Shown here: positions 4,461 to 49,729 of the stretch, piece after piece
Layout: each line of letters starts with the position of its first letter
Numbering within the stretch: the stretch's first letter is position 1
Assembly (NCBI GenBank): GCA_025463605.1
Contig: JAODAV010000022.1
Coordinates: forward strand, 62,001 to 126,000
Reading direction: 5' to 3'
From: Rhodoglobus sp.
GTDB taxonomy: Bacteria; Actinomycetota; Actinomycetes; Actinomycetales; Microbacteriaceae
DNA length: 64,000 bases
The notes under the pieces: generated by a model
Seen by the model: only the letters and a program-made list of their open reading frames with translations
Told to the model about the DNA's origin: nothing
Databases searched by the model: none
Translations under genes and position numbers: made by a program

Positions 4461-5453
4461 GTGAAGACGCATGAGGAGAACTACCTGCTGACCGCGGTGG
4501 ACAAGCTGTCACAGAAGCACCTAACGCGGGTGATGCAGTCGAAGACCGTGGAGCATCGCGACGCTGAGGGCGAGCTGCTCGACACGATTGAGGTCGCATG
4601 CGTGTCGGTCATCGACCACGACCCGCTGCTCATCCAGCTCCGTGACGCGATTGGGAGCAGCACGGGTTCGAAGGGGGCGAGTTCGGATGGAGCCGCTCGC
4701 ATCCCGTTCAACCCGGCAGCGCAGGCGCTGTTCGACCCGATCGCTCGACAGATCAACGCGTGGTACATCGTGCTGCCGAACGCTCGGGAGGAGCGACACA
4801 TCCACGACCGCCTGCGCGACTGGTTCACGGACTTCGAGAACCGGCGTCGGGCAGGGAAGTTGCATGCCACGGAGGAGAACGACACCACGAGGATGGTGGA
4901 GGGTTGGGTGAGATCGATAGAGGCGATGTTCGACCCTCCCAACGTCTTCGAGGTCACCGACGACGAGGTGCCTGCGCCCTGCCCGCTGTGCGGCGGCCGG
5001 TACGCGATCGACGAGCGCACCGGGGATCGCATCACCGCGCTGATCATCGAGTACCGCAATCTAGGCGCAGAGACGATGGAGCACGCGACTGGCCTGTGCC
5101 GCTCGTGCTACACGGTGTGGGAGGGAAGCTCCGGGTTGCGGAATATGCGGTGGGCGATCGAGAACGAGCCCGCAGTGGGAGTCGCGACGATCGAAGGGCT
5201 CACCGCGCACCAGATCACGATGGGGATGGCGGCGGCGCTCAAGGAGCGCAACATGAAGTCGGTCAGTAGCCTCCTCGCACTCCTCGGGCAACTCAACCCG
5301 GCGAAGGCCGACGAGTTGCGGGACGTGGTGCGGCAGGTGCTCGCGGCCGACAAGGCCGCCCGCAAACGTGCGGAGGCGGCCAGGCGCGCCAAGGAAGCCG
5401 AGGAGCGACGACGACGACACGCCGAAGGCAAGACTGGCGACGCTTCGAGATAG
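4461..5453 (+). CDS. Hypothetical phage protein with zinc-ribbon-like CPLC...CRSC
   Basis: 330-aa ORF; CPLCGGRY/LCRSCYTVW Cys pairs. Confidence 0.65.
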   Translation: MKTHEENYLLTAVDKLSQKHLTRVMQSKTVEHRDAEGELLDTIEVACVSVIDHDPLLIQLRDAIGSSTGSKGASSDGAARIPFNPAAQALFDPIARQINAWYIVLPNAREERHIHDRLRDWFTDFENRRRAGKLHATEENDTTRMVEGWVRSIEAMFDPPNVFEVTDDEVPAPCPLCGGRYAIDERTGDRITALIIEYRNLGAETMEHATGLCRSCYTVWEGSSGLRNMRWAIENEPAVGVATIEGLTAHQITMGMAAALKERNMKSVSSLLALLGQLNPAKADELRDVVRQVLAADKAARKRAEAARRAKEAEERRRRHAEGKTGDASR

Positions 5454-5474: not shown

Positions 5475-5519
5475 ATGCCCCGAACTCTGCCCACTGGCAG
5501 GTCGGGGCATTCGTGTTTT
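5475..5519 (+). terminator. Nested-hairpin rho-independent terminator
   Basis: ATGCCCCGA...TCGGGGCAT enclosing CTGCC-CACT-GGCAG, followed by TCGTGTTTT. Confidence 0.65.
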
Positions 5520-5618
5520 CCCACTGATTTCCGACCACACGGGCAACCCAATAGCCGCTGCGAGCGTGCACATCCGTCGATGAGTTCGGAATCCCCGTCA
5601 CGGCAAGGAGTAGTCATC

Positions 5619-5855
5619 ATGGCAGAGTCCACGACCCCGCTCGAGGAGCGGTTCATGACCGCCGTAGGCGGCAAGCCGCCGACGGACGACCAGAAGCACG
5701 CAGTCGCGAAGCTTCAAGAGGCGATAGTGCAGGTCGCCTCCCATATCCACGCATTCGTGCCGAGCGGCCGCAACCAGTCGCTCGCGCTGACGTCGCTCGA
5801 GGATGTGCAGATGCGGGCCAACCGCGGCATCTTCGCGGAGGGTCCGTCGAAATGA
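5619..5855 (+). CDS. Acb2/Tad1-hairpin-domain-family protein (candidate anti-CBASS cyclic nucleotide sponge)
   Basis: 78 aa; C-terminal signature HAFVPSGRNQSLALTSLEDVQMRANRGIF resembles the Acb2 family pattern vPxgreqsLALTxLEeaxmxAnxaIa; AAGGAG upstream. Confidence 0.7.
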   Translation: MAESTTPLEERFMTAVGGKPPTDDQKHAVAKLQEAIVQVASHIHAFVPSGRNQSLALTSLEDVQMRANRGIFAEGPSK

Positions 5856-5962
5856 TCGTCGGCCCGTTCGGGTTCGGGAGCGTGCGAAGCGGACCTTCCA
5901 AGAAGGCTCGGGGTCGCGCGCAGCAGACCAAGGCGCACCGCAGGGCGAAGACACGGCGATGA
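5852..5962 (+). CDS. 36-aa basic peptide
   Basis: ATGA overlap with the Acb2-like gene; MIVGPFGFGSVRSGPSKKARGRAQQTKAHRRAKTRR. Confidence 0.35.
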   Translation: MIVGPFGFGSVRSGPSKKARGRAQQTKAHRRAKTRR

Positions 5963-6072
5963 TCTTCGCCGTGGTGTTCTGCGTGATCACGTCCGCCTTC
6001 ATCCTCCGTGGATGCAGGGCGGGCGTCTTCCGGTGGCCGCAGCGTCGCACCTGGTTCGACATCGCACGCTGA
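5959..6072 (+). CDS. 37-aa predicted membrane peptide
   Basis: ATGA overlap; hydrophobic N-terminus MIFAVVFCVITSAFILRG. Confidence 0.4.
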   Translation: MIFAVVFCVITSAFILRGCRAGVFRWPQRRTWFDIAR

Positions 6073-6368
6073 TGCCCGCCAAGGGGCGCCCGTGGACGCG
6101 TGAGACCGCGCTGTTCAAAGAGGAGTGCCGCAAGCGGAATGCCCCGTGTTGGAACTGCCAGCTCGGTGGTATCCCGATCGACTACCTGTCGAAGTACGAC
6201 CCCGACAACTACCAGCCAGCCCGGTACACGACGGATCACAAGAACCCGACCTCGCTCGGCGGCGACAAGATGCAGCGCAGCAACTGGGCGCCGGCTCACG
6301 CGCACTGCAACAGCAGCAGGGGCAACGGGACACGTAGGGCTGAGCTGCCCACATCAAGGAAGTGGTGA
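6072..6368 (+). CDS. HNH endonuclease
   Basis: CWNCQLGG...YTTDHKNPTSLGGDKMQRSNWAPAHAHCNSSRGN; placed just before the terminase. Confidence 0.85.
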   Translation: MPAKGRPWTRETALFKEECRKRNAPCWNCQLGGIPIDYLSKYDPDNYQPARYTTDHKNPTSLGGDKMQRSNWAPAHAHCNSSRGNGTRRAELPTSRKW

Positions 6369-6955: not shown

Positions 6956-7507
6956 ATGGCCCCTCGCCAGCCGAAGTTCACCGAGCCACCCGAGCCGGCT
7001 CCAAAGGCGCGTCGCGCTCGAGTCGCGAAGCCCCCGATCGCCACACCGAAGCCGCCCGTTCGCCCCCGCCGACCACGGACTGCGACCGCGCAACCTACCC
7101 AGCTCGGGCCGCGCGGGTCCAAGCTCCAAAAGGCACTCGACTCGCTCAAGACGTTCAACCCGGCCGAGACGGTGATGGTCGAGGAGATGTGCCGGATGGC
7201 CGACCGGCTCGAGGCGATCAACGAGCTGGTCGTGGGCAAGGGGCTGGCGAACCTGCTGCACCTCCGGCGCATGGATGACTTCGGCGAGGAGGAGGGCGAA
7301 GTCGTCATCAAGGTCACCATCGACGCCGTGCTCGCGGAGGGTCGGCAACTGCAGCTCGCATTCCAGCGACTGGCGACCGCGCTGAATGTCGAGTCGGGCG
7401 AGGCGGCCAAGGGCGAGGGGGATGTCAGTGACGACCTCGCGGAAAAACGCAAGCGTGACCTCGCCGCCCGTGCTAGTAACCGGGCGGCAGACTCCACGGG
7501 TTCGTAG
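6956..7507 (+). CDS. Terminase small subunit (probable)
   Basis: Position immediately upstream of TerL; basic Pro-rich N-terminus. Confidence 0.7.
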   Translation: MAPRQPKFTEPPEPAPKARRARVAKPPIATPKPPVRPRRPRTATAQPTQLGPRGSKLQKALDSLKTFNPAETVMVEEMCRMADRLEAINELVVGKGLANLLHLRRMDDFGEEEGEVVIKVTIDAVLAEGRQLQLAFQRLATALNVESGEAAKGEGDVSDDLAEKRKRDLAARASNRAADSTGS

Positions 7508-8966
7508 CTGCCCCGACTACCGCTTCACGTCTGGCCCTGATGCCGTCGCGATCTACGAATCGACCGGTCGTGAACTCGACCTCTGGCAAAAGACATCTCT
7601 CGACGACCATTGCGCCGAGCGCGACGACGGTCGGTGGCTGACGCTCGAGTCGGCTGAGGAAGTGCCCCGCCAAAACGGCAAGGGCGAGATCATCAACGCC
7701 CTGATGCTGCTGCACCTGTTCGTGCTCGGCACGCAGACGACGATCTACTCGGCGCACGAGTTCAAGACGGCCAAAGAGTCGTACCTGAAAATCTATGCGC
7801 TGATCCGAAACACCCCGGCGCTGCACAAGAAGGTCGAGTACTACCACAACTCGAACGAGGACACCTCGATCAAGTTGAAGACGGGGCAGCGCCTCCGGTT
7901 CCTCACCAGGTCGAAGGATGGCGGCCGCGGGTTCACGGGCGACGTGATCATTTTCGACGAGGCGTTCAATCTCACGCAGTCGTCGCTCGCCGCGGTGCTG
8001 CCCACGCTCTCGTCGCGGCCCAATCCGCACATCTACTATTTCTCATCGACGGGCAAGGACACGTCGGAGTCGGATGTGTTCCGCGGGCTCAAGCAGCGCG
8101 GCGACCCGACCGAGGGCGCGCCCGATCGCTCGCTGATCTGGATCTCGTACTCGGCCGACCCGCGCACAGCGGACCCCGACTCGATCCTCTCAAGGGCCGA
8201 GGCGAACCCGGCGTACAACGTGCGCATCTTCGATTCGTTCATCGACGTTGAGCGAAAGACACTCAGCGAAGTCGACTTCATGCGCGAGCGACTCGGCGTC
8301 TGGGATGACAGCAAGGTCGCCGCCGTCATCAACATGGCGCAGTGGGAAGCGATCGGCGACTCAGAGTCCACGATCCCGCTGAACGCACGCGTCGCGATGG
8401 CGATCGACACGTCTCCGGGTGAGGCGTTCACCTCGATCTCGATCGCGGGTCGACGAGCCGACGGACTCACACACGTCGAAGTCATCGACCGTCGTCGCGG
8501 GACCGGCTGGGTGGTCGATCGCGTGCAAGAGCTGAACGACAAGTGGAACCCGGCACAGATCGTGCTCGACGCCATCGGCCCGGTCGGCGCTCTGCTGCCG
8601 GACTTCAAGGTCGCAGGCGTGGACATCACTGTCATCACGGCCGTCGAATACGCACAGGCGTGCATGGGGTTTGTTGCCGCGACCGAGCCGAAGGTGATCT
8701 TCGACGGTGACGGGTTGCCGGTACACGGACCCGACGGGAAGCCGAAGACGCTTCCCGCGCAACTCGTGCACATCAACCAGTCGCCGCTCACCAACGCAGC
8801 GGAGGTCGGCCGCAAGCGCGAGATTCGCGACGCGGGCGGCTGGGGTTGGCACCGCCGTGACTCGACCGACATCAGCGCTCTCGTCTCCGTGACGCTCGCG
8901 TTCTTCGCCCACACCCGCACCAACGTGGACGCCCCCACTAACTCGCTCATGTTCTTCGGACGTTAG
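7422..8966 (+). CDS. Terminase large subunit
   Basis: ORF with EEVPRQNGKGEIINALMLLHLFVLG, DVIIFDEAFNL Walker B, AIDTSPGEAF nuclease region; ATG 7422 with GGGCGAGGGGG upstream. Confidence 0.92.
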   Translation: MSVTTSRKNASVTSPPVLVTGRQTPRVRSCPDYRFTSGPDAVAIYESTGRELDLWQKTSLDDHCAERDDGRWLTLESAEEVPRQNGKGEIINALMLLHLFVLGTQTTIYSAHEFKTAKESYLKIYALIRNTPALHKKVEYYHNSNEDTSIKLKTGQRLRFLTRSKDGGRGFTGDVIIFDEAFNLTQSSLAAVLPTLSSRPNPHIYYFSSTGKDTSESDVFRGLKQRGDPTEGAPDRSLIWISYSADPRTADPDSILSRAEANPAYNVRIFDSFIDVERKTLSEVDFMRERLGVWDDSKVAAVINMAQWEAIGDSESTIPLNARVAMAIDTSPGEAFTSISIAGRRADGLTHVEVIDRRRGTGWVVDRVQELNDKWNPAQIVLDAIGPVGALLPDFKVAGVDITVITAVEYAQACMGFVAATEPKVIFDGDGLPVHGPDGKPKTLPAQLVHINQSPLTNAAEVGRKREIRDAGGWGWHRRDSTDISALVSVTLAFFAHTRTNVDAPTNSLMFFGR

Positions 8967-8975
8967 GAGCCCTTC

Positions 8976-10361
8976 ATGGCTGCATCTGCCCTGACTTTGC
9001 TCCGTCTCACCGACGACGAGCGCGCCGTGCTCGGCGAGCTGCAACGCAGGGTATTCGCGTCGCGGCCGAAGGACATCAAGCACGAGCGCTACTACCAAGG
9101 GCGCCAGCGTCTCGCGCTGCTCGGCATCGCGGTGCCGCCCGAGCTGGCGGGGTTCGAGACGGTCGTGAACTGGCCGCGCGTCGGTGTCGACGAGATCGAG
9201 CACCGCATGGACGTGCGCGCGTTCGTGCGTCCGGGCAACGACAAGGCCGACGAGGAACTGCGTGAGGCCGCCGAGGCGAACAACCTCGACTCTGAGTTCC
9301 CGCTGCTGCACCGCCAGACACTCAAGCTCGGCCGCGGATTCGCGTCGGTCTCGACGAATCCTGACGACAAGGACATGCCCCACATCACGGTCGAGTCCTC
9401 TCGCGAGATCGCCGTGACCGTCGACACGCGCACCCGCACCATCACGGCGGCGCTGCGGCTCTACAAGTCTGACGGCGCGTTCGTCATGTTCAACCGCGCC
9501 ACCCTGTACCTGCCGAACACCACTCTCTGGCTCGAGACCGGAGGCCCGGGCGGGTGGAAGGTCGTCGACCGCGACGACCACAACCTCGGCCGCGTCGCCA
9601 TCGTCATCTACCTCAACCGCCGCGAGATCGGCGACTGGCTCGGCGAGTCGGAGATGACGGATCTCATGCCGATCACCGACGCGGCTGCCCGTTCCCTGAC
9701 GAACCTCCAGCTCGCGCAGGAAACGCACGCTGTCCCGCCGCGGTATGTCCTCGGCATCACCAAGGGCGACTTCGTCGACAAGGACGGTAAGCAACTCCCC
9801 GCATGGGAGGCGTACTACGACCGGTTCATGGCGACCGCGAACAAGGATGCCAAGATCGGCCAGCTCGACCAGGCGGACCTCTCCAACTTCCACGACACCG
9901 TGATGTTTTACGGCAAGCTCGCGTCGAGCGTCTCTGGGCTTCCGACCCGTTACTTCGGCGACAACCCGGCCAACCCCGCGACCGAGGGCGCGATCCGCGC
10001 CGACGAGTCACGCCTGATCAAGAACACCGAGCGGAAGATGTCCGACGCCGGCTCGCAGCACGGCCTGCTCATGGCGCTGTGGTTGCGATTCAAGACGGGC
10101 GAGTGGGTCGACGGCAACCGTGTCTCGACGCTCTGGTACGACGCTGGAACCCCGACGTTCTCGCAGCGCGCGGACGCTCTGCAGAAGCTCGCGGGAGGCA
10201 AGCCGCTGATCTCTCGCGAGGGTGCGTGGGATGAACTCGGGTGGAGTGAAGCGCGCAAGGATCGCGAGCGCGGCTACTTCGAGGCCGAGGACCAGGACCC
10301 GCAGATTACGGCGGCGAACCGGAAGCTGGCGGAGCTTGCAGCCCCTCCGGTCGTCCCTTAG
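8976..10361 (+). CDS. Phage portal protein (SPP1 gp6-like)
   Basis: Long ORF after TerL; RYYQGRQRL.., NWPRVGVDEIEHRMDVRAFV, SGLPTRYFGDNPANPATEGAIRADESRLIKNTERK. Confidence 0.9.
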   Translation: MAASALTLLRLTDDERAVLGELQRRVFASRPKDIKHERYYQGRQRLALLGIAVPPELAGFETVVNWPRVGVDEIEHRMDVRAFVRPGNDKADEELREAAEANNLDSEFPLLHRQTLKLGRGFASVSTNPDDKDMPHITVESSREIAVTVDTRTRTITAALRLYKSDGAFVMFNRATLYLPNTTLWLETGGPGGWKVVDRDDHNLGRVAIVIYLNRREIGDWLGESEMTDLMPITDAAARSLTNLQLAQETHAVPPRYVLGITKGDFVDKDGKQLPAWEAYYDRFMATANKDAKIGQLDQADLSNFHDTVMFYGKLASSVSGLPTRYFGDNPANPATEGAIRADESRLIKNTERKMSDAGSQHGLLMALWLRFKTGEWVDGNRVSTLWYDAGTPTFSQRADALQKLAGGKPLISREGAWDELGWSEARKDRERGYFEAEDQDPQITAANRKLAELAAPPVVP

Positions 10362-13077: not shown

Positions 13078-14085
13078 ATGGCAGCAATCACTCTGGCCGA
13101 GGCGAAGAACAACACCTCGGCTGATCTCGACCTGGCGGTGATCGACGAGTTCCGCAAGGAGTCCGTGATCCTCGACAGCCTCGTGTTCGACGCATCGGTC
13201 AACCCGACCGGTGGCGGCGACACGCTGACGTACGGCTACCGTCGCCAGATCACCCAGCCGACCGCCGCGACTCGCGCGATCAACAGCGAGTACGCCGACC
13301 AGAACGTCACGACCCAGAAGTACACCACCGACCTCGCGGTCATGGGTGGTTCGTTCTCGGTCGACCGCGTTTCGGCGGCACTCGGAGCGGCAGGCTCGGG
13401 CGCGATCGCGCTCAACATGAGCCAGAAGATCAAGGCCGCGCGCACGAAGTTTCAGGATCTCGTCATCAACGGCGACACGGCGGTCGATGCCAACGGCTTC
13501 GACGGTCTCGACAAGGCACTCATCGGCTCCACCACGGAGTACAACGCAGCGGTGGTGTCGAACTGGTCGGATCTCGACACCGACCAGTCGGTCAAGTTCA
13601 AGGCGCTCGACGCGCTCGACGAGTTCCTGTCGTTCCTCGATGGCACGCCGACGCTGATCCTCGGCAACAAGAGCGCGCTCGCCAAGGTGCGCGCGATCGT
13701 CCGCCGCACGGGGATGTACACCCGTGACCCGATCGAGGGTCTCGTCGGTCAGGACGGACGCCCGATCACGCGGGAGTCGTACGGCGGAATCGTCTTCGCG
13801 GACCCGGGCGACATCGCCGGTGCCTCGACGCCGATCATCCCCGTGGCGACCCGCACGGTGGCGACGGTCTCGACGACGTTCCTGACCGACATCTACGCCA
13901 TCCGCATCGGCATGGATGGTTTCCACGGCGTCTCTGCCGAGGGCGGAACGATCGTCAAGGCGTTCCTGCCGAAGTTCGAGGAGGCCGGCGCTGTGAAGCG
14001 CGGCGAAGTCGAGCTGGGCCCGGTCTCCGTCGCCCTCCGCGCAACCAAGGCGGCCGCCGTGTTCCGCAACATCAAGATCAAGTAA
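13078..14085 (+). CDS. Major capsid protein
   Basis: 335 aa HK97-type capsid-like ORF; position. Confidence 0.88.
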   Translation: MAAITLAEAKNNTSADLDLAVIDEFRKESVILDSLVFDASVNPTGGGDTLTYGYRRQITQPTAATRAINSEYADQNVTTQKYTTDLAVMGGSFSVDRVSAALGAAGSGAIALNMSQKIKAARTKFQDLVINGDTAVDANGFDGLDKALIGSTTEYNAAVVSNWSDLDTDQSVKFKALDALDEFLSFLDGTPTLILGNKSALAKVRAIVRRTGMYTRDPIEGLVGQDGRPITRESYGGIVFADPGDIAGASTPIIPVATRTVATVSTTFLTDIYAIRIGMDGFHGVSAEGGTIVKAFLPKFEEAGAVKRGEVELGPVSVALRATKAAAVFRNIKIK

Positions 14086-17948: not shown

Positions 17949-20858
17949 ATGAACGATCGCGTCGTAGCCGTAAGTCTCACCATGCAGGTGGCGAACTACA
18001 TCGCAGGTGCCGAGCAAGTACGTCGCTCGAACCTCACCATGATGTCGTCCGCCGAGCGGGCTCGCGCGAAGTTCGAGGAGCAGAACCAGGCGATGACCCG
18101 GGTGGGTACCGGGCTGGTCGCGGTCGGCGCGCTCGCGGCGGTCGGAGTCGGACTGGCGATCAAGACGTTCGCGGATTTCGACGCGGCGATCTCCAAGGTG
18201 GAGGCCGCGACGCACGGAAGCGCCAACGAGATGGATCGCCTGCGTGCCGCGGCGCTCGAGGCCGGCGCCCGCACCGTGTTCTCCGCCATCGAGTCAGCGA
18301 ACGCGATCGAGGAACTTGCGAAGGCTGGGCTGACCGCAACCGAAATCCTCGCGGGCGGGCTCGATGCGGCCCTCGATCTGGCGGCCGCATCCGGCATCGG
18401 CGTGGCCGAGGCTGCGGGGATCGCGGCGACGGCGCTCAAGGTGTTCAAGCTCGAGGGCAAGGACATGTCCCATGTCGCCGACCTGATGGCTGCGGCCGCG
18501 GGGAAGGCGATGGGCGGCGTCACCGAAATGGGGCAGGCGCTCTCCCAGGCCGCGCAGGTCGCGAAGAGCACCGGGCTGACGATCGACGAGACAACGACCG
18601 CGCTTGCTGCGTTCGCCTCACAGGGGTTGCTCGGCTCGGATGCGGGTACGTCATTCAAGTCGATGCTGCAGCGCCTGACCCCGCAGTCGACGGAGGCCGC
18701 TGCCCGGATGAAGGATCTGGGTATCTCTGCGTACGACCAACAGGGCAAATTCGTGGGGCTTGAGAAGTTCGCGGGCATCCTCCGCGCAGGGCTCGAGGAC
18801 CTCACGGCCGAGCAGCGGAACTCGGCCCTCGCGACGATCTTCGGCTCCGATGCCGTGCGCGCCGCCACCGTCCTCTACTCCGAGGGCTCCGATGGTATCC
18901 GTGATTGGAGCGAGAAGGTCAACGACGCTGGCTATGCAGCCGAGACCGCCCGCATCCGGCTTGACAACCTGAACGGTGACGTCGAGAAGCTATCCGGATC
19001 GTTCGACACCGCCCTGATCAAGTCAGGTTCGGCGGCCGACGGGACCCTGCGGCTGCTTGTTCAGACTGCGACCGAACTCGTCGACATCTTCAACGGTGCG
19101 CCGCCGATCGTGCAGCAGGCCACTCTTGCTCTTGGTGCGCTGGTGGCCGTCGGCGGTCTCACCGCGGGCACGTTCCTGCTCGCGGTTCCGCGCATCGCTG
19201 AGTTCACCACGGCGCTCATAACGCTCTCGACATCACCTATCCCTGCCGTGCGCACAGCGGCCCTGCGGGCGGGTGCAGCCATCACCGTGATGAGCGGCGC
19301 GATGAGCAAGTCCGCCGCGTTCCTCAGTGGACCGTGGGGTCTCGCACTCGCTGCCGCGTCCATCGGGGTCGCCCTACTTAGCAAGTACTTGGACGACCTG
19401 CAGGCATCTAGCGCCGAGATCACCAACTCCCTGACGACCGCAACCTCCGCCGCGGACCTGTTCCACGTCGCTCTCAAGGGCAAGGACGTGAAGTGGTGGG
19501 CGAACACGGAGAACGCGCTCGCCAACCTCGACAAGCACCTGCAGCTCTCGGCCGAAGAGGCCGGAAACCTGTGGGCGCGGTTCAACAACGACACCGAGCA
19601 AAACGCCACCATCGAGGCACTCGCCGACATCGGCACCGAGCTTGGTGCGCTCGCGGGCTCTGATCTTCCCGCTGCTCAAAGATCGTTCCGGTTGCTCGCC
19701 GACGAGACGGACGGAACCGACCGTCGGCTGTGGCAGTTGCTCTCCACGATGCCGGGGTACAAGGATGCGCTGATCGAGCAGGCAGGCGCTCTGGGTATCA
19801 ACGTCACATCGACGAACGAGGCCGCGAACAAGGCCGCGCTGCTCAAGCTCGCGTTTGGAAACGCAACGCCGACAGCGCTCGATGCGGCAGATGCCTACCT
19901 CGCGGCAGCCGATGAAGCCAGCGGCCTCAACGACCAGATGCGTTCACTCATGGACGCGATCAATGAAGCGAATGGCATCGGGCAGGATGCAGTGTCACAG
20001 AACGCCGCCTACCAAGAATCGCTAGCCGGGATTTCGGCGGAAGTGCAGAGCCAAAAGGACGCCTTCATTCAGTTGCAGAAGGACGGCTACGAGGCTGCCA
20101 ACGGCACACTCGAGGGGTTCGTCGGAACCCTCGACGGCTTCTCCCTGTCGCTCGACGAGAGCACCGCCGCGGGGTCGGCGAATGCGGCGATGCTGTCGCA
20201 GGTCGCGGCGGATGCGCAGTCCGCGGCCCTCGCCCAGTACGAGGTCGACAAGACGACGATGAGCGCGAAGGACGCAACGGACAAGTACATCCTGACGCTC
20301 GGCACGAGCCGTCAGTCGCTCATCGACCAGGCCCTCGCGAACGGGTACAGCGCCGAGGAAGTACAGAAGCTCATCGACAAGGTGTACGCGATGCCGACTC
20401 AGCGCGAGACGAAGCTCCTCGTGGACAAGGCGAACGCTCAGCAGCAAATCGACAGCTTCGTGAATGACAACACCGGGCGCACCATCGCCATCAACGTGGC
20501 GAACTCTCGCAACTTCGCCGACGGGGGCCCGATAACCGGAATAGGCGGTCCCCGTCAGGACAACATTCCGATCATGGCCTCGGCGGGCGAGCACATGTGG
20601 TCGGCGAGGGATGTGCAGGCCGCAGGTGGCCACGACGCCGTCTTCGCGATCCGCAGGTCGCTGTACCAGGGTCTCGCCGACGGCGGCCCGGTGAAGCCGA
20701 TGTATGCGCACCACACGTTCTCAGCTCCGCCGCAGTACGCAACGGAGTCGAGAGGGAGAGGCGATGTGAACGTGAGCCTGACCACCCACAACCCGGTGCG
20801 TAAGTCCGAGTCGGAGACCATCCGCGAGGCCGGGCAGATCGTGTCGGTGTTCCTGTGA
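17949..20858 (+). CDS. Tail tape measure protein
   Basis: 969 aa, longest tail-module ORF, helical with central hydrophobic segments. Confidence 0.92.
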   Translation: MNDRVVAVSLTMQVANYIAGAEQVRRSNLTMMSSAERARAKFEEQNQAMTRVGTGLVAVGALAAVGVGLAIKTFADFDAAISKVEAATHGSANEMDRLRAAALEAGARTVFSAIESANAIEELAKAGLTATEILAGGLDAALDLAAASGIGVAEAAGIAATALKVFKLEGKDMSHVADLMAAAAGKAMGGVTEMGQALSQAAQVAKSTGLTIDETTTALAAFASQGLLGSDAGTSFKSMLQRLTPQSTEAAARMKDLGISAYDQQGKFVGLEKFAGILRAGLEDLTAEQRNSALATIFGSDAVRAATVLYSEGSDGIRDWSEKVNDAGYAAETARIRLDNLNGDVEKLSGSFDTALIKSGSAADGTLRLLVQTATELVDIFNGAPPIVQQATLALGALVAVGGLTAGTFLLAVPRIAEFTTALITLSTSPIPAVRTAALRAGAAITVMSGAMSKSAAFLSGPWGLALAAASIGVALLSKYLDDLQASSAEITNSLTTATSAADLFHVALKGKDVKWWANTENALANLDKHLQLSAEEAGNLWARFNNDTEQNATIEALADIGTELGALAGSDLPAAQRSFRLLADETDGTDRRLWQLLSTMPGYKDALIEQAGALGINVTSTNEAANKAALLKLAFGNATPTALDAADAYLAAADEASGLNDQMRSLMDAINEANGIGQDAVSQNAAYQESLAGISAEVQSQKDAFIQLQKDGYEAANGTLEGFVGTLDGFSLSLDESTAAGSANAAMLSQVAADAQSAALAQYEVDKTTMSAKDATDKYILTLGTSRQSLIDQALANGYSAEEVQKLIDKVYAMPTQRETKLLVDKANAQQQIDSFVNDNTGRTIAINVANSRNFADGGPITGIGGPRQDNIPIMASAGEHMWSARDVQAAGGHDAVFAIRRSLYQGLADGGPVKPMYAHHTFSAPPQYATESRGRGDVNVSLTTHNPVRKSESETIREAGQIVSVFL

Positions 20859-26801: not shown

Positions 26802-27728
26802 GTGTACCGGATACCGGGTGAAAGCTTCGTCGTCACCCAGAGCTTCGCTGAGCATGTGGCCGCGACCGGGTTGGGTGCGATCGACTTCCGCGACAACCGC
26901 GGCACGATGATGCGCGCGCAGGAAGCCGGCGTCGTCACGGCGGTCGACAACAACCCATCTGGGGCCGAGGGCCGTCAGGTGTACATCCGCTATGACGGAC
27001 GCGGCGATGAGATCACGCAGGCGCACGCGCTGCTCATCACGGCCGTGCGCGGCCAGCGCGTCGCGAAAGGCGACCAGATAGGGATCTCAGCCGGGTCCGG
27101 GTTCGGCGAGGACTTCTACTACGGCCCGCACATCCACAACGCGGCATTCGACTCTGCCGGGCGCCGCTTCGATCACGCATCACTCATCGACTGGGCATCC
27201 GCTGCAGGCGGCGGCTCGACACCGCTCCTAGAACCGAAAGAAGAGACCATGTCACAGATTCTGCGCTCACAAAGCCGCTCCGACGACTGGGTGATCCCTG
27301 CCCCCGGCATGAGCTTCATGCTGCCCGACAACGGCCCCGTCCGGCCGCTCTCCCAAAAGGAGTACGACTCGTACGTGTTCTGGTCGACCCGCGGCTTCCC
27401 CGTGCGGTTCACCGACTGGCCTGGCAACGACATCCGCGATCTCACCCGCTCGATCGGGCTCGCCGAGTGGGAGGGCTTCCCAGTGCTCCCCGCAGACAAC
27501 ATCCCCAGACTCACCGGGCGCCTCATCTTCGAAGACTGGATGAACCCACGTACACCGGGCGGGGGCAGTGCCACCTCCGGCACGGGCGGCGACACGGCCG
27601 CGATCCTCGCGAAGCTGGCTGCGCTCGACGAGCAGGCAGACGACTACCAGGAGCGTATCGAAGCCCTGATTGGCAAGGTCCCCGATGCAGTGGTCGACGA
27701 GCAGGCCGACCGCCTCACCGGCAAGTAG
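26802..27728 (+). CDS. Endolysin with M23-like peptidase domain
   Basis: AEHVAATGLGAIDFRD and YGPHIHNAAFD (HxH); Pro/Gly linker and distinct C-terminal domain. Confidence 0.75.
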   Translation: MYRIPGESFVVTQSFAEHVAATGLGAIDFRDNRGTMMRAQEAGVVTAVDNNPSGAEGRQVYIRYDGRGDEITQAHALLITAVRGQRVAKGDQIGISAGSGFGEDFYYGPHIHNAAFDSAGRRFDHASLIDWASAAGGGSTPLLEPKEETMSQILRSQSRSDDWVIPAPGMSFMLPDNGPVRPLSQKEYDSYVFWSTRGFPVRFTDWPGNDIRDLTRSIGLAEWEGFPVLPADNIPRLTGRLIFEDWMNPRTPGGGSATSGTGGDTAAILAKLAALDEQADDYQERIEALIGKVPDAVVDEQADRLTGK

Positions 27729-29289: not shown

Positions 29290-29313
29290 TGTGGCTAGAT
29301 CATAGTTGCGAAG

Positions 29314-29386
29314 TGGGCCCGGCGGGGCTCGAACCCGCGACCCGCTGATTAAAAGTCAGATGCTCTACCGACTGAGCTACAGGCCC
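29314..29386 (-). tRNA. tRNA-Lys (anticodon TTT)
   Basis: GGGCCTGTAGCTCAGTCGGTAGAGCATCTGACTTTTAATCAGCGGGTCGCGGGTTCGAGCCCCGCCGGGCCCA folds as a canonical cloverleaf. Confidence 0.93.
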
Positions 29387-30336
29387 TATGCAGCTATCTT
29401 CCCACGCCGGCCGGAGTGCTTGCGAAGCGCGATCGGTGGGACGACGTTGATGCCCTCGCTCATCTCTTCCTCCGTGACTCCGGTGTAGAGCTGGGTGGTC
29501 GCCAGCGAGGCGTGACCTAGTGTCTCCTGCACGACTCGGAGGGATGCGCCATTACGAAGCATGGTGGTGGCGAGGTAGTGCCGCAACGAGTGGGCCGTGA
29601 GATTGCGGTCTGTGATGCCCGCGCGCCGCATTGCTTTCGATACAGCGTCGCTAGCGGACGTCATGAGGATGTGGCCGCCGCCGTTCGGGAACAGCTTGCT
29701 TATGTACGGCGATGGGAACCACCACCCGCGGGTGGGGTACTTGTCGAGGATCGGGAGCAGGCCTTCGGGAATCGCCCCACGCCAGAGGAGGTTGCCTTTG
29801 CGCACTGCACTGATCATCATGCCCTCGCGGTCGATGTCTTCGCCTCTGATCCTGACTACTTCTCCGATTCGCAGGCCGGTGAGCGCGGCGATTGTGATGA
29901 TGTCGCGGGTGCGCGAGTAGGCGCCGGTGTCCAGCATCGCGTCGATCTGTTCGGCGCGTAGTGGCCGCGGCAGCCGACGGGTCATCTTGATCTTCCTAAG
30001 GCGCTTCGACGGGTTCTTCATGCCGCGCATGTAGCCCTCGTCTTTGAGCCAGCCGTAGAAGGTCTGGAAGTAGGAGCGCTCAGACTGCATGGTGCCTTGC
30101 GCGAGATGTTTCCCGGTGCGTGGGTGGGGGCGGGAGAGTTGGGCCTGCAGGTCTTCTAGGGTGATGTCGAGTGGCTGCTTTCCGCTGCTGCGCGCGAGTA
30201 GGAGGAGGCATTCCTCACGGTTGAGGATGGTCTTCGCTGACAGGTTCCCCGAGACCTGGTAGTTCTTGAATGCGTGCAGTGCCTGTTCCCAGTCGAGTCC
30301 CTTACCGACTAGGTACAGGGCCATCGTTTGCCCCAT
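29386..30336 (-). CDS. int: Tyrosine recombinase / integrase
   Basis: AALTGLRIGEVVRIRGEDID, HSLRHYLATTMLRNGASLRVVQETLGHASLATTQLYT (R...HxxR...H...Y). Confidence 0.95.
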   Translation of the reverse strand: MGQTMALYLVGKGLDWEQALHAFKNYQVSGNLSAKTILNREECLLLLARSSGKQPLDITLEDLQAQLSRPHPRTGKHLAQGTMQSERSYFQTFYGWLKDEGYMRGMKNPSKRLRKIKMTRRLPRPLRAEQIDAMLDTGAYSRTRDIITIAALTGLRIGEVVRIRGEDIDREGMMISAVRKGNLLWRGAIPEGLLPILDKYPTRGWWFPSPYISKLFPNGGGHILMTSASDAVSKAMRRAGITDRNLTAHSLRHYLATTMLRNGASLRVVQETLGHASLATTQLYTGVTEEEMSEGINVVPPIALRKHSGRRGKIAA

Positions 30337-31069: not shown

Positions 31070-31117
31070 TCGGACCCATAATCCGCGGGTCGCGGGTTCG
31101 AGCCCCGCCGGGCCCAC
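31070..31117 (+). repeat. tRNA 3'-half fragment (CAT anticodon loop to acceptor), candidate attR
   Basis: TCGGACCCATAATCCGCGGGTCGCGGGTTCGAGCCCCGCCGGGCCCAC with no matching 5' half upstream. Confidence 0.75.
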
Positions 31118-49204: not shown

Positions 49205-49729
49205 TCAGGGTGTGGGTTCAGGCGTTGGAGTCGGCTCGGCGGTCGGCTCCGTCGTCGGCTCAGGGGTCGGCTCGGGCGTCGTCGGGGGCGCTGGAGCGGG
49301 CGCGGGGGCGGGGGCGACGGGGTCCGTCGTCGGCTCATCCCCGGTTTCCGTTTCTCCGCTGTCCGGTGGCACTACCGCTACCGGCGTGCTGCTCGGCGTC
49401 GGCGTGCTCGACGGCGACATCACGGGCTCGACGGTGCGGGGCAGGAAGGTCACCGCAAGAACTGCCAGTGCGAGGCCCACCGCACCGACGACGAGCCAGG
49501 GAACCAGTCCCGACCGGCGAGGGGGCGGCTCGGTGGCTCCGGTCGTCGCGACGGGCACGGGGAGTGGTTCAGTGGAGCCCACGAGCGGCTCCGGGGCGTC
49601 GACGAAGGGAACGTGAGAGGCGACGACGGGCTCCGCGGGCTGCGCAACATCCCCCACCGCCATAGGTTGGGTCGGCTCATCCGCGGAGGCCACGCGTGGC
49701 GCCTCGTCGGGATCGATCACGTCGGGCAT
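49205..49729 (-). CDS. Hypothetical membrane protein with Pro/Thr/Glu-rich C-terminal repeats
   Basis: Single TM then PTPEPTPEPTTEPTAEPTPTPEPTP. Confidence 0.65.
   Translation of the reverse strand: MPDVIDPDEAPRVASADEPTQPMAVGDVAQPAEPVVASHVPFVDAPEPLVGSTEPLPVPVATTGATEPPPRRSGLVPWLVVGAVGLALAVLAVTFLPRTVEPVMSPSSTPTPSSTPVAVVPPDSGETETGDEPTTDPVAPAPAPAPAPPTTPEPTPEPTTEPTAEPTPTPEPTP

Follow-up and report, generated by a model that had tools for sequence, protein, structure and literature searches.

The Acb2 hexamer has three CDN and two CTN pockets, 3'cADPR is a Thoeris signal, and mutation of Y8 in T4 Acb2 disrupts the binding of cyclic dinucleotides. Published Acb2 protomers consist of one short N-terminal helix and two long antiparallel helices and do not have the beta-sheet of Tad1, whose own ligands include both gcADPR and cyclic di- and trinucleotides (PMC12043709). 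Residue F82 of T4 Acb2 stacks on the cyclic dinucleotides that the protein binds, and the F82C variant fails to activate Panoptes (PMC12657218); the T68M change has been described as reducing the affinity of binding (PMC12657230). According to a 2026 paper, Microbacterium phage Statler encodes a putative Acb2, as do other phages of cluster EG (PMC13348362). We found that 40 Microbacterium phage records encode a homologue of the protein described here (34-47% identity), and one of these, Wolfstar gp30, is already annotated as a "cyclic oligonucleotide sequestering protein".

This kind of sponge is already known and annotated in related phages, and the gene at 5619-5855 of our window (the whole 64,000-nucleotide stretch of DNA analyzed, positions 62001-126000 of its contig) is a further example. 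Based on the evidence below, the gene very probably encodes a phage sponge with the Acb2/Tad1 hairpin that holds a nucleotide alarm, either a CBASS cyclic di- or trinucleotide or a cADPR-type Thoeris signal. From its relatives we infer that the protein may oligomerize, bind a ligand, and act in counter-defense. The small helical-hairpin protomers would most likely form an Acb2-like hexamer, the hexamer would bind and hold the nucleotide alarm signal, and with the signal held, the host suicide effector would stay off during phage multiplication.

Reading frame and family of the 78-aa protein

Translation of the forward strand gives exactly the 78 aa quoted in the original prediction, followed by a stop. 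The same frame extends upstream, where a mechanical ORF from the ATG at 5475 would be 126 aa long, whereas the alignments of close homologues begin at the methionine at 5619 (MAEST...). The features at the gene itself are:

5605..5610, + strand: AAGGAG, Shine-Dalgarno-like by sequence, 8 nt upstream of the sponge ATG
5619..5855, + strand: gene for the proposed sponge, a 78-aa protein with the Acb2/Tad1 hairpin (helices predicted at 8-16, 23-46, and 51-72)
5852..5962, + strand: candidate 36-aa, very basic ORF (MIVGPFGFGSVRSGPSKKARGRAQQTKAHRRAKTRR), with its ATG overlapping the stop codon of the sponge ORF (ATGA)

GC content by codon position in the sponge ORF is 0.67/0.45/0.86, which is typical of coding sequence here, and the substitutions that separate it from its closest homologue (82% identical, from metagenomic viral contigs) are mainly at third positions (12/7/34 by codon position). 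The dN/dS ratio (NG86) is 0.133/0.97 = 0.14 against this homologue and 0.24 against the next one, indicating that the protein is under purifying selection. With its exact translation, Shine-Dalgarno sequence, coding-like composition, and low dN/dS, the predicted 78-aa ORF is a real gene whose protein is kept by selection. No counterpart of the 36-aa ORF was seen after the sponge homologues that we inspected.

The original prediction assigned the protein to the Acb2/Tad1 hairpin family and proposed an HMM search as a check. When this was run, the corresponding Pfam family (PF24729) matched the protein with 52.1 bits (E = 7.8e-14, profile positions 3-57 of 58), well above the curated cutoff of 27 bits. 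The same search returned 0 matches both in 14 control genomes and in 26 genomes congeneric with the host, which argues that the match in the window is not due to chance. PHROG family phrog_1454 (function unknown) also matches the protein, and PADLOC, which covers defense genes, not counter-defense, gave no match.

Profiles were needed to reach the PDB, because single-sequence phmmer searches with either the window protein or Wolfstar gp30 found no match there even at E 10. With a 27-sequence family profile, the top match among 177,635 PDB sequences was Acb2 homolog 43 (9ptq, E 0.0028), followed by Tad1 chains (E 0.7-0.8) and T4 Vs.4 (E 1.9), and the only other matches under E 10 were two designed coiled coils; an earlier 13-sequence profile had matched only 9ptq and 7uq2. 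These E-values are individually weak, yet the ranking over so many sequences is telling and appears to favor Acb2/Tad1.

The AlphaFold model, a monomer for which 27 sequences from the window and from contigs were aligned, is all-helical, with the three helices at the positions listed above, an overall pLDDT of 83, and values of 91-98 in the blocks covering residues 21-70. The predicted fold matches the anatomy of the Acb2 protomer, which we take as support, not proof. In the PDB, Foldseek ranked T4 Vs.4 with cGAMP first (prob 0.99) and 9ptq fourth (prob 0.92), with E-values above 0.1. A protein of 78 aa with two helices can be expected to give weak E-values against solved structures, by sequence as well as by fold. 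In the BFVD viral library, Acb2/Tad1 hairpin proteins make up most of the named leading matches.

Across the 27-member family, R51, A56, E61, and R66 are invariant and F72 is nearly so. Both hmmsearch and hhalign (hhalign E 4e-4 against T4-type Acb2s) pair T68 of T4 Acb2 with T58 of the window protein and F82 with F72, and by these alignments the two ligand-linked residues are kept. For Y8, the KPxTDD register gives the non-aromatic G18, at an N-terminus that falls outside the profile alignments, and the other candidate equivalent is F12 in the short helix. Taken together, the profile, the predicted fold, and the conserved residues support membership in the Acb2/Tad1 hairpin family, as originally proposed.

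The prophage and the gene neighborhoods of homologues

The placement of the sponge gene in a prophage, which was also part of the original prediction, is supported by the phage gene set, the chromosomal flanks, and the tRNA-Lys junctions. The main features are:

contig 49370-49409 (window -12630..-12591), + strand: left prophage end, 5' half of host tRNA-Lys(UUU)
4461..5453, + strand: upstream prophage gene, weak DUF7341 match below the Pfam cutoff
6012..6368, + strand: HNH endonuclease downstream of the sponge gene (PF01844, just over cutoff)
6956..7507, + strand: terminase small subunit (phrog_1496)
7386..8966, + strand: terminase large subunit (phrog_9), true start probably later in frame
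8976..10361, + strand: portal protein (phrog_104)
13078..14085, + strand: major head protein (phrog_212)
17949..20858, + strand: tail tape measure protein (phrog_1533)
26802..27728, + strand: M23-peptidase protein, probable endolysin (PF01551)
29313-29386, - strand: complete phage tRNA-Lys(UUU) next to the integrase
29386..30336, - strand: tyrosine integrase (PF00589, 89 bits)
31079..31117, + strand: attR, right prophage junction, 3' half of host tRNA-Lys(UUU)

The left tRNA-Lys half is 12.6 kb before the start of the window, and the prophage is ~43.7 kb long. It also encodes a repressor, a RecE-like exonuclease, two DNA methylases, and a helicase, and it is flanked by chromosomal genes such as those for polyphosphate kinase, ABC transport, a luciferase-like monooxygenase, and GH20.

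The prophage splits the host tRNA-Lys(UUU) inside the anticodon loop (core TAATCC). The host assembly has no full-length close match to this tRNA other than the phage copy, and the congeneric genomes (26/26) have one such match each; the reading of AAA codons in the lysogen may thus depend on the phage tRNA-Lys. Two relatives (G007 and G024) also have an extra 3' half.

Closer homologues of the sponge (46-82% identity) occur in viral contigs and in Microbacterium and Leifsonia genomes, and a plasmid search gave no match. Judged by the bacteria in which the homologues are found, the host of the window prophage is probably a member of Microbacteriaceae. The neighbor genes of the window sponge are mostly missing at the loci of the homologues. 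In several otherwise different prophages (e.g. L016 and L018), the homologue is inside the head/packaging block, in one case flanked by the genes for the minor and the major head protein; the window gene is just upstream of the HNH and terminase genes, and in other phages the homologue adjoins SSB, near RuvC. The families of the head genes around the homologues vary from prophage to prophage, and most of these genes have no homology to those in the window. We infer that the sponge gene moves alone between unlike prophages and lytic phages, which fits counter-defense cargo. Some homologues (L020, L026/L050, L037, L040/L041, L043, and L045) have an N-terminal hairpin and an extra C-terminal part, for a total of 135-238 aa. 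The extra parts matched no Pfam family over cutoff, and these proteins might combine a sponge with a second, fused function.

Target signal and alternative roles

The closest solved relative by sequence, 9ptq, is titled "Acb2 homolog 43 in complex with 3'cADPR", indicating that a hairpin of the Acb2 type can hold 3'cADPR. In the host assembly (2.88 Mb, 65 contigs, 87% complete), profile models found no match to a SMODS CD-NTase, ThsB, TIR_2, or Cas10 palm domain. The original prediction of a "CBASS or related signalling inhibitor" had the right breadth, while its title, "anti-CBASS", is too narrow because 9ptq holds 3'cADPR, Tad1 binds both classes of signal, and the host has no matched cyclase, TIR, or Cas10 gene. 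A broader label is warranted: "CBASS or Thoeris signal sponge". SMODS cyclases are present in 6/150 genomes of the same bacterial family, so CBASS may be locally available as a target, and the prophage may have its targets in other hosts. One genome of that family (G118) combines a SMODS cyclase of the CBASS type with a hairpin match that is weak and below cutoff; the two are on different contigs (C29 and C22) and could be a natural sponge/CBASS pair.

A sponge directed at Thoeris, with a cADPR isomer (e.g. 3'cADPR) as its main ligand and CBASS nucleotides bound weakly or not at all, is possible, although we find it doubtful. The 3'cADPR complex of 9ptq points in this direction, as do the hinge and third-helix sequence of the window protein (GRNQSLALTSLEDVQMRANR), which also resembles Tad1, and the aromatic Y8 that T4 Acb2 uses for cyclic dinucleotides, which is not evident here. 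However, T4 Vs.4 with cGAMP is the closest match by structure, the dinucleotide-stacking F82 is kept as F72, the N-terminal beta domain of Tad1 is absent, and two models found no TIR gene in the host. It is unlikely, though worth stating, that the actinobacterial hairpin sponges (GRNxSLALTxLEDVQMRANR type) have shifted to another ligand relative to the Acb2s of T4 and Pseudomonas, for example a Thoeris-type or an undescribed signal. If true, such a ligand-shifted clade would point to a signaling defense in Microbacteriaceae that current models miss.

Cyclic dinucleotides are among the ligands of the hairpin family (PMC12043709), and with the enzymes known to make alarm signals not found in the host assembly, the protein could instead titrate a housekeeping signal (e.g. 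c-di-AMP or c-di-GMP) and so alter physiology during the lytic cycle without blocking a defense. Against this, part of the host genome is missing from the assembly, and SMODS cyclases are present in some genomes of the same bacterial family, as noted above. We also know of no precedent in the Acb2/Tad1 family for titrating housekeeping signals, and we consider this role very unlikely. We considered a small protein of the head/packaging module, sharing its hairpin with Acb2 and playing no part in immunity, because homologues are inside the head modules of several prophages and the window gene immediately precedes the HNH and terminase genes. A structural protein should track its partners, but the neighboring head genes differ in family between prophages and elsewhere the gene adjoins SSB/RuvC, and both the profile and the residues match Acb2/Tad1 specifically. 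The structural role was rejected since the neighbors differ between phages, and it is the least credible of these readings. A sponge for CBASS or Thoeris signals is the interpretation that we prefer.

Comparison with known sponges

The protein shares the short helix plus hairpin with T4 Vs.4/Acb2 (PDB 7uq2), which is the top PDB fold match and has the equivalents of its T58 and F72 in T68 and F82. In contrast, the T4 protein has about 89 aa and more residues between its helices, and the two are ~20% identical. Acb2 homolog 43 (9ptq), the best PDB match by sequence, is ~19% identical in the fold alignment and shares a hinge motif with the window protein (LPEGREKS / VPSGRNQS). Tad1 (PDB 7uav, 8smd, and 8kbe-8kbh) has a similar hairpin helix motif (R...ALTxxEexxMxxNR) but is about 125-140 aa long, with an N-terminal antiparallel beta-sheet domain that is absent from the AlphaFold model of the 78-aa window protein.

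Among phages of related hosts, Wolfstar gp30 and ISF9_033 of Microbacterium phages have the same hairpin and are 38-42% identical to the window protein, and Statler gp57, published as a putative Acb2 (PMC13348362), is grouped with them on that description. The gene adds a well-supported temperate-phage member to the family of immune-signal sponges, and together with its relatives at 46-82% identity it could be used to test which signals must be silenced by phages of actinobacteria. The Wolfstar, Statler, and ISF9_033 sponges are from cultured phages, whereas the window sponge is from an integrated temperate phage, and its nearer relatives (46-82%) are copies from other prophages and from metagenomes, not the sponges of the cultured phages.
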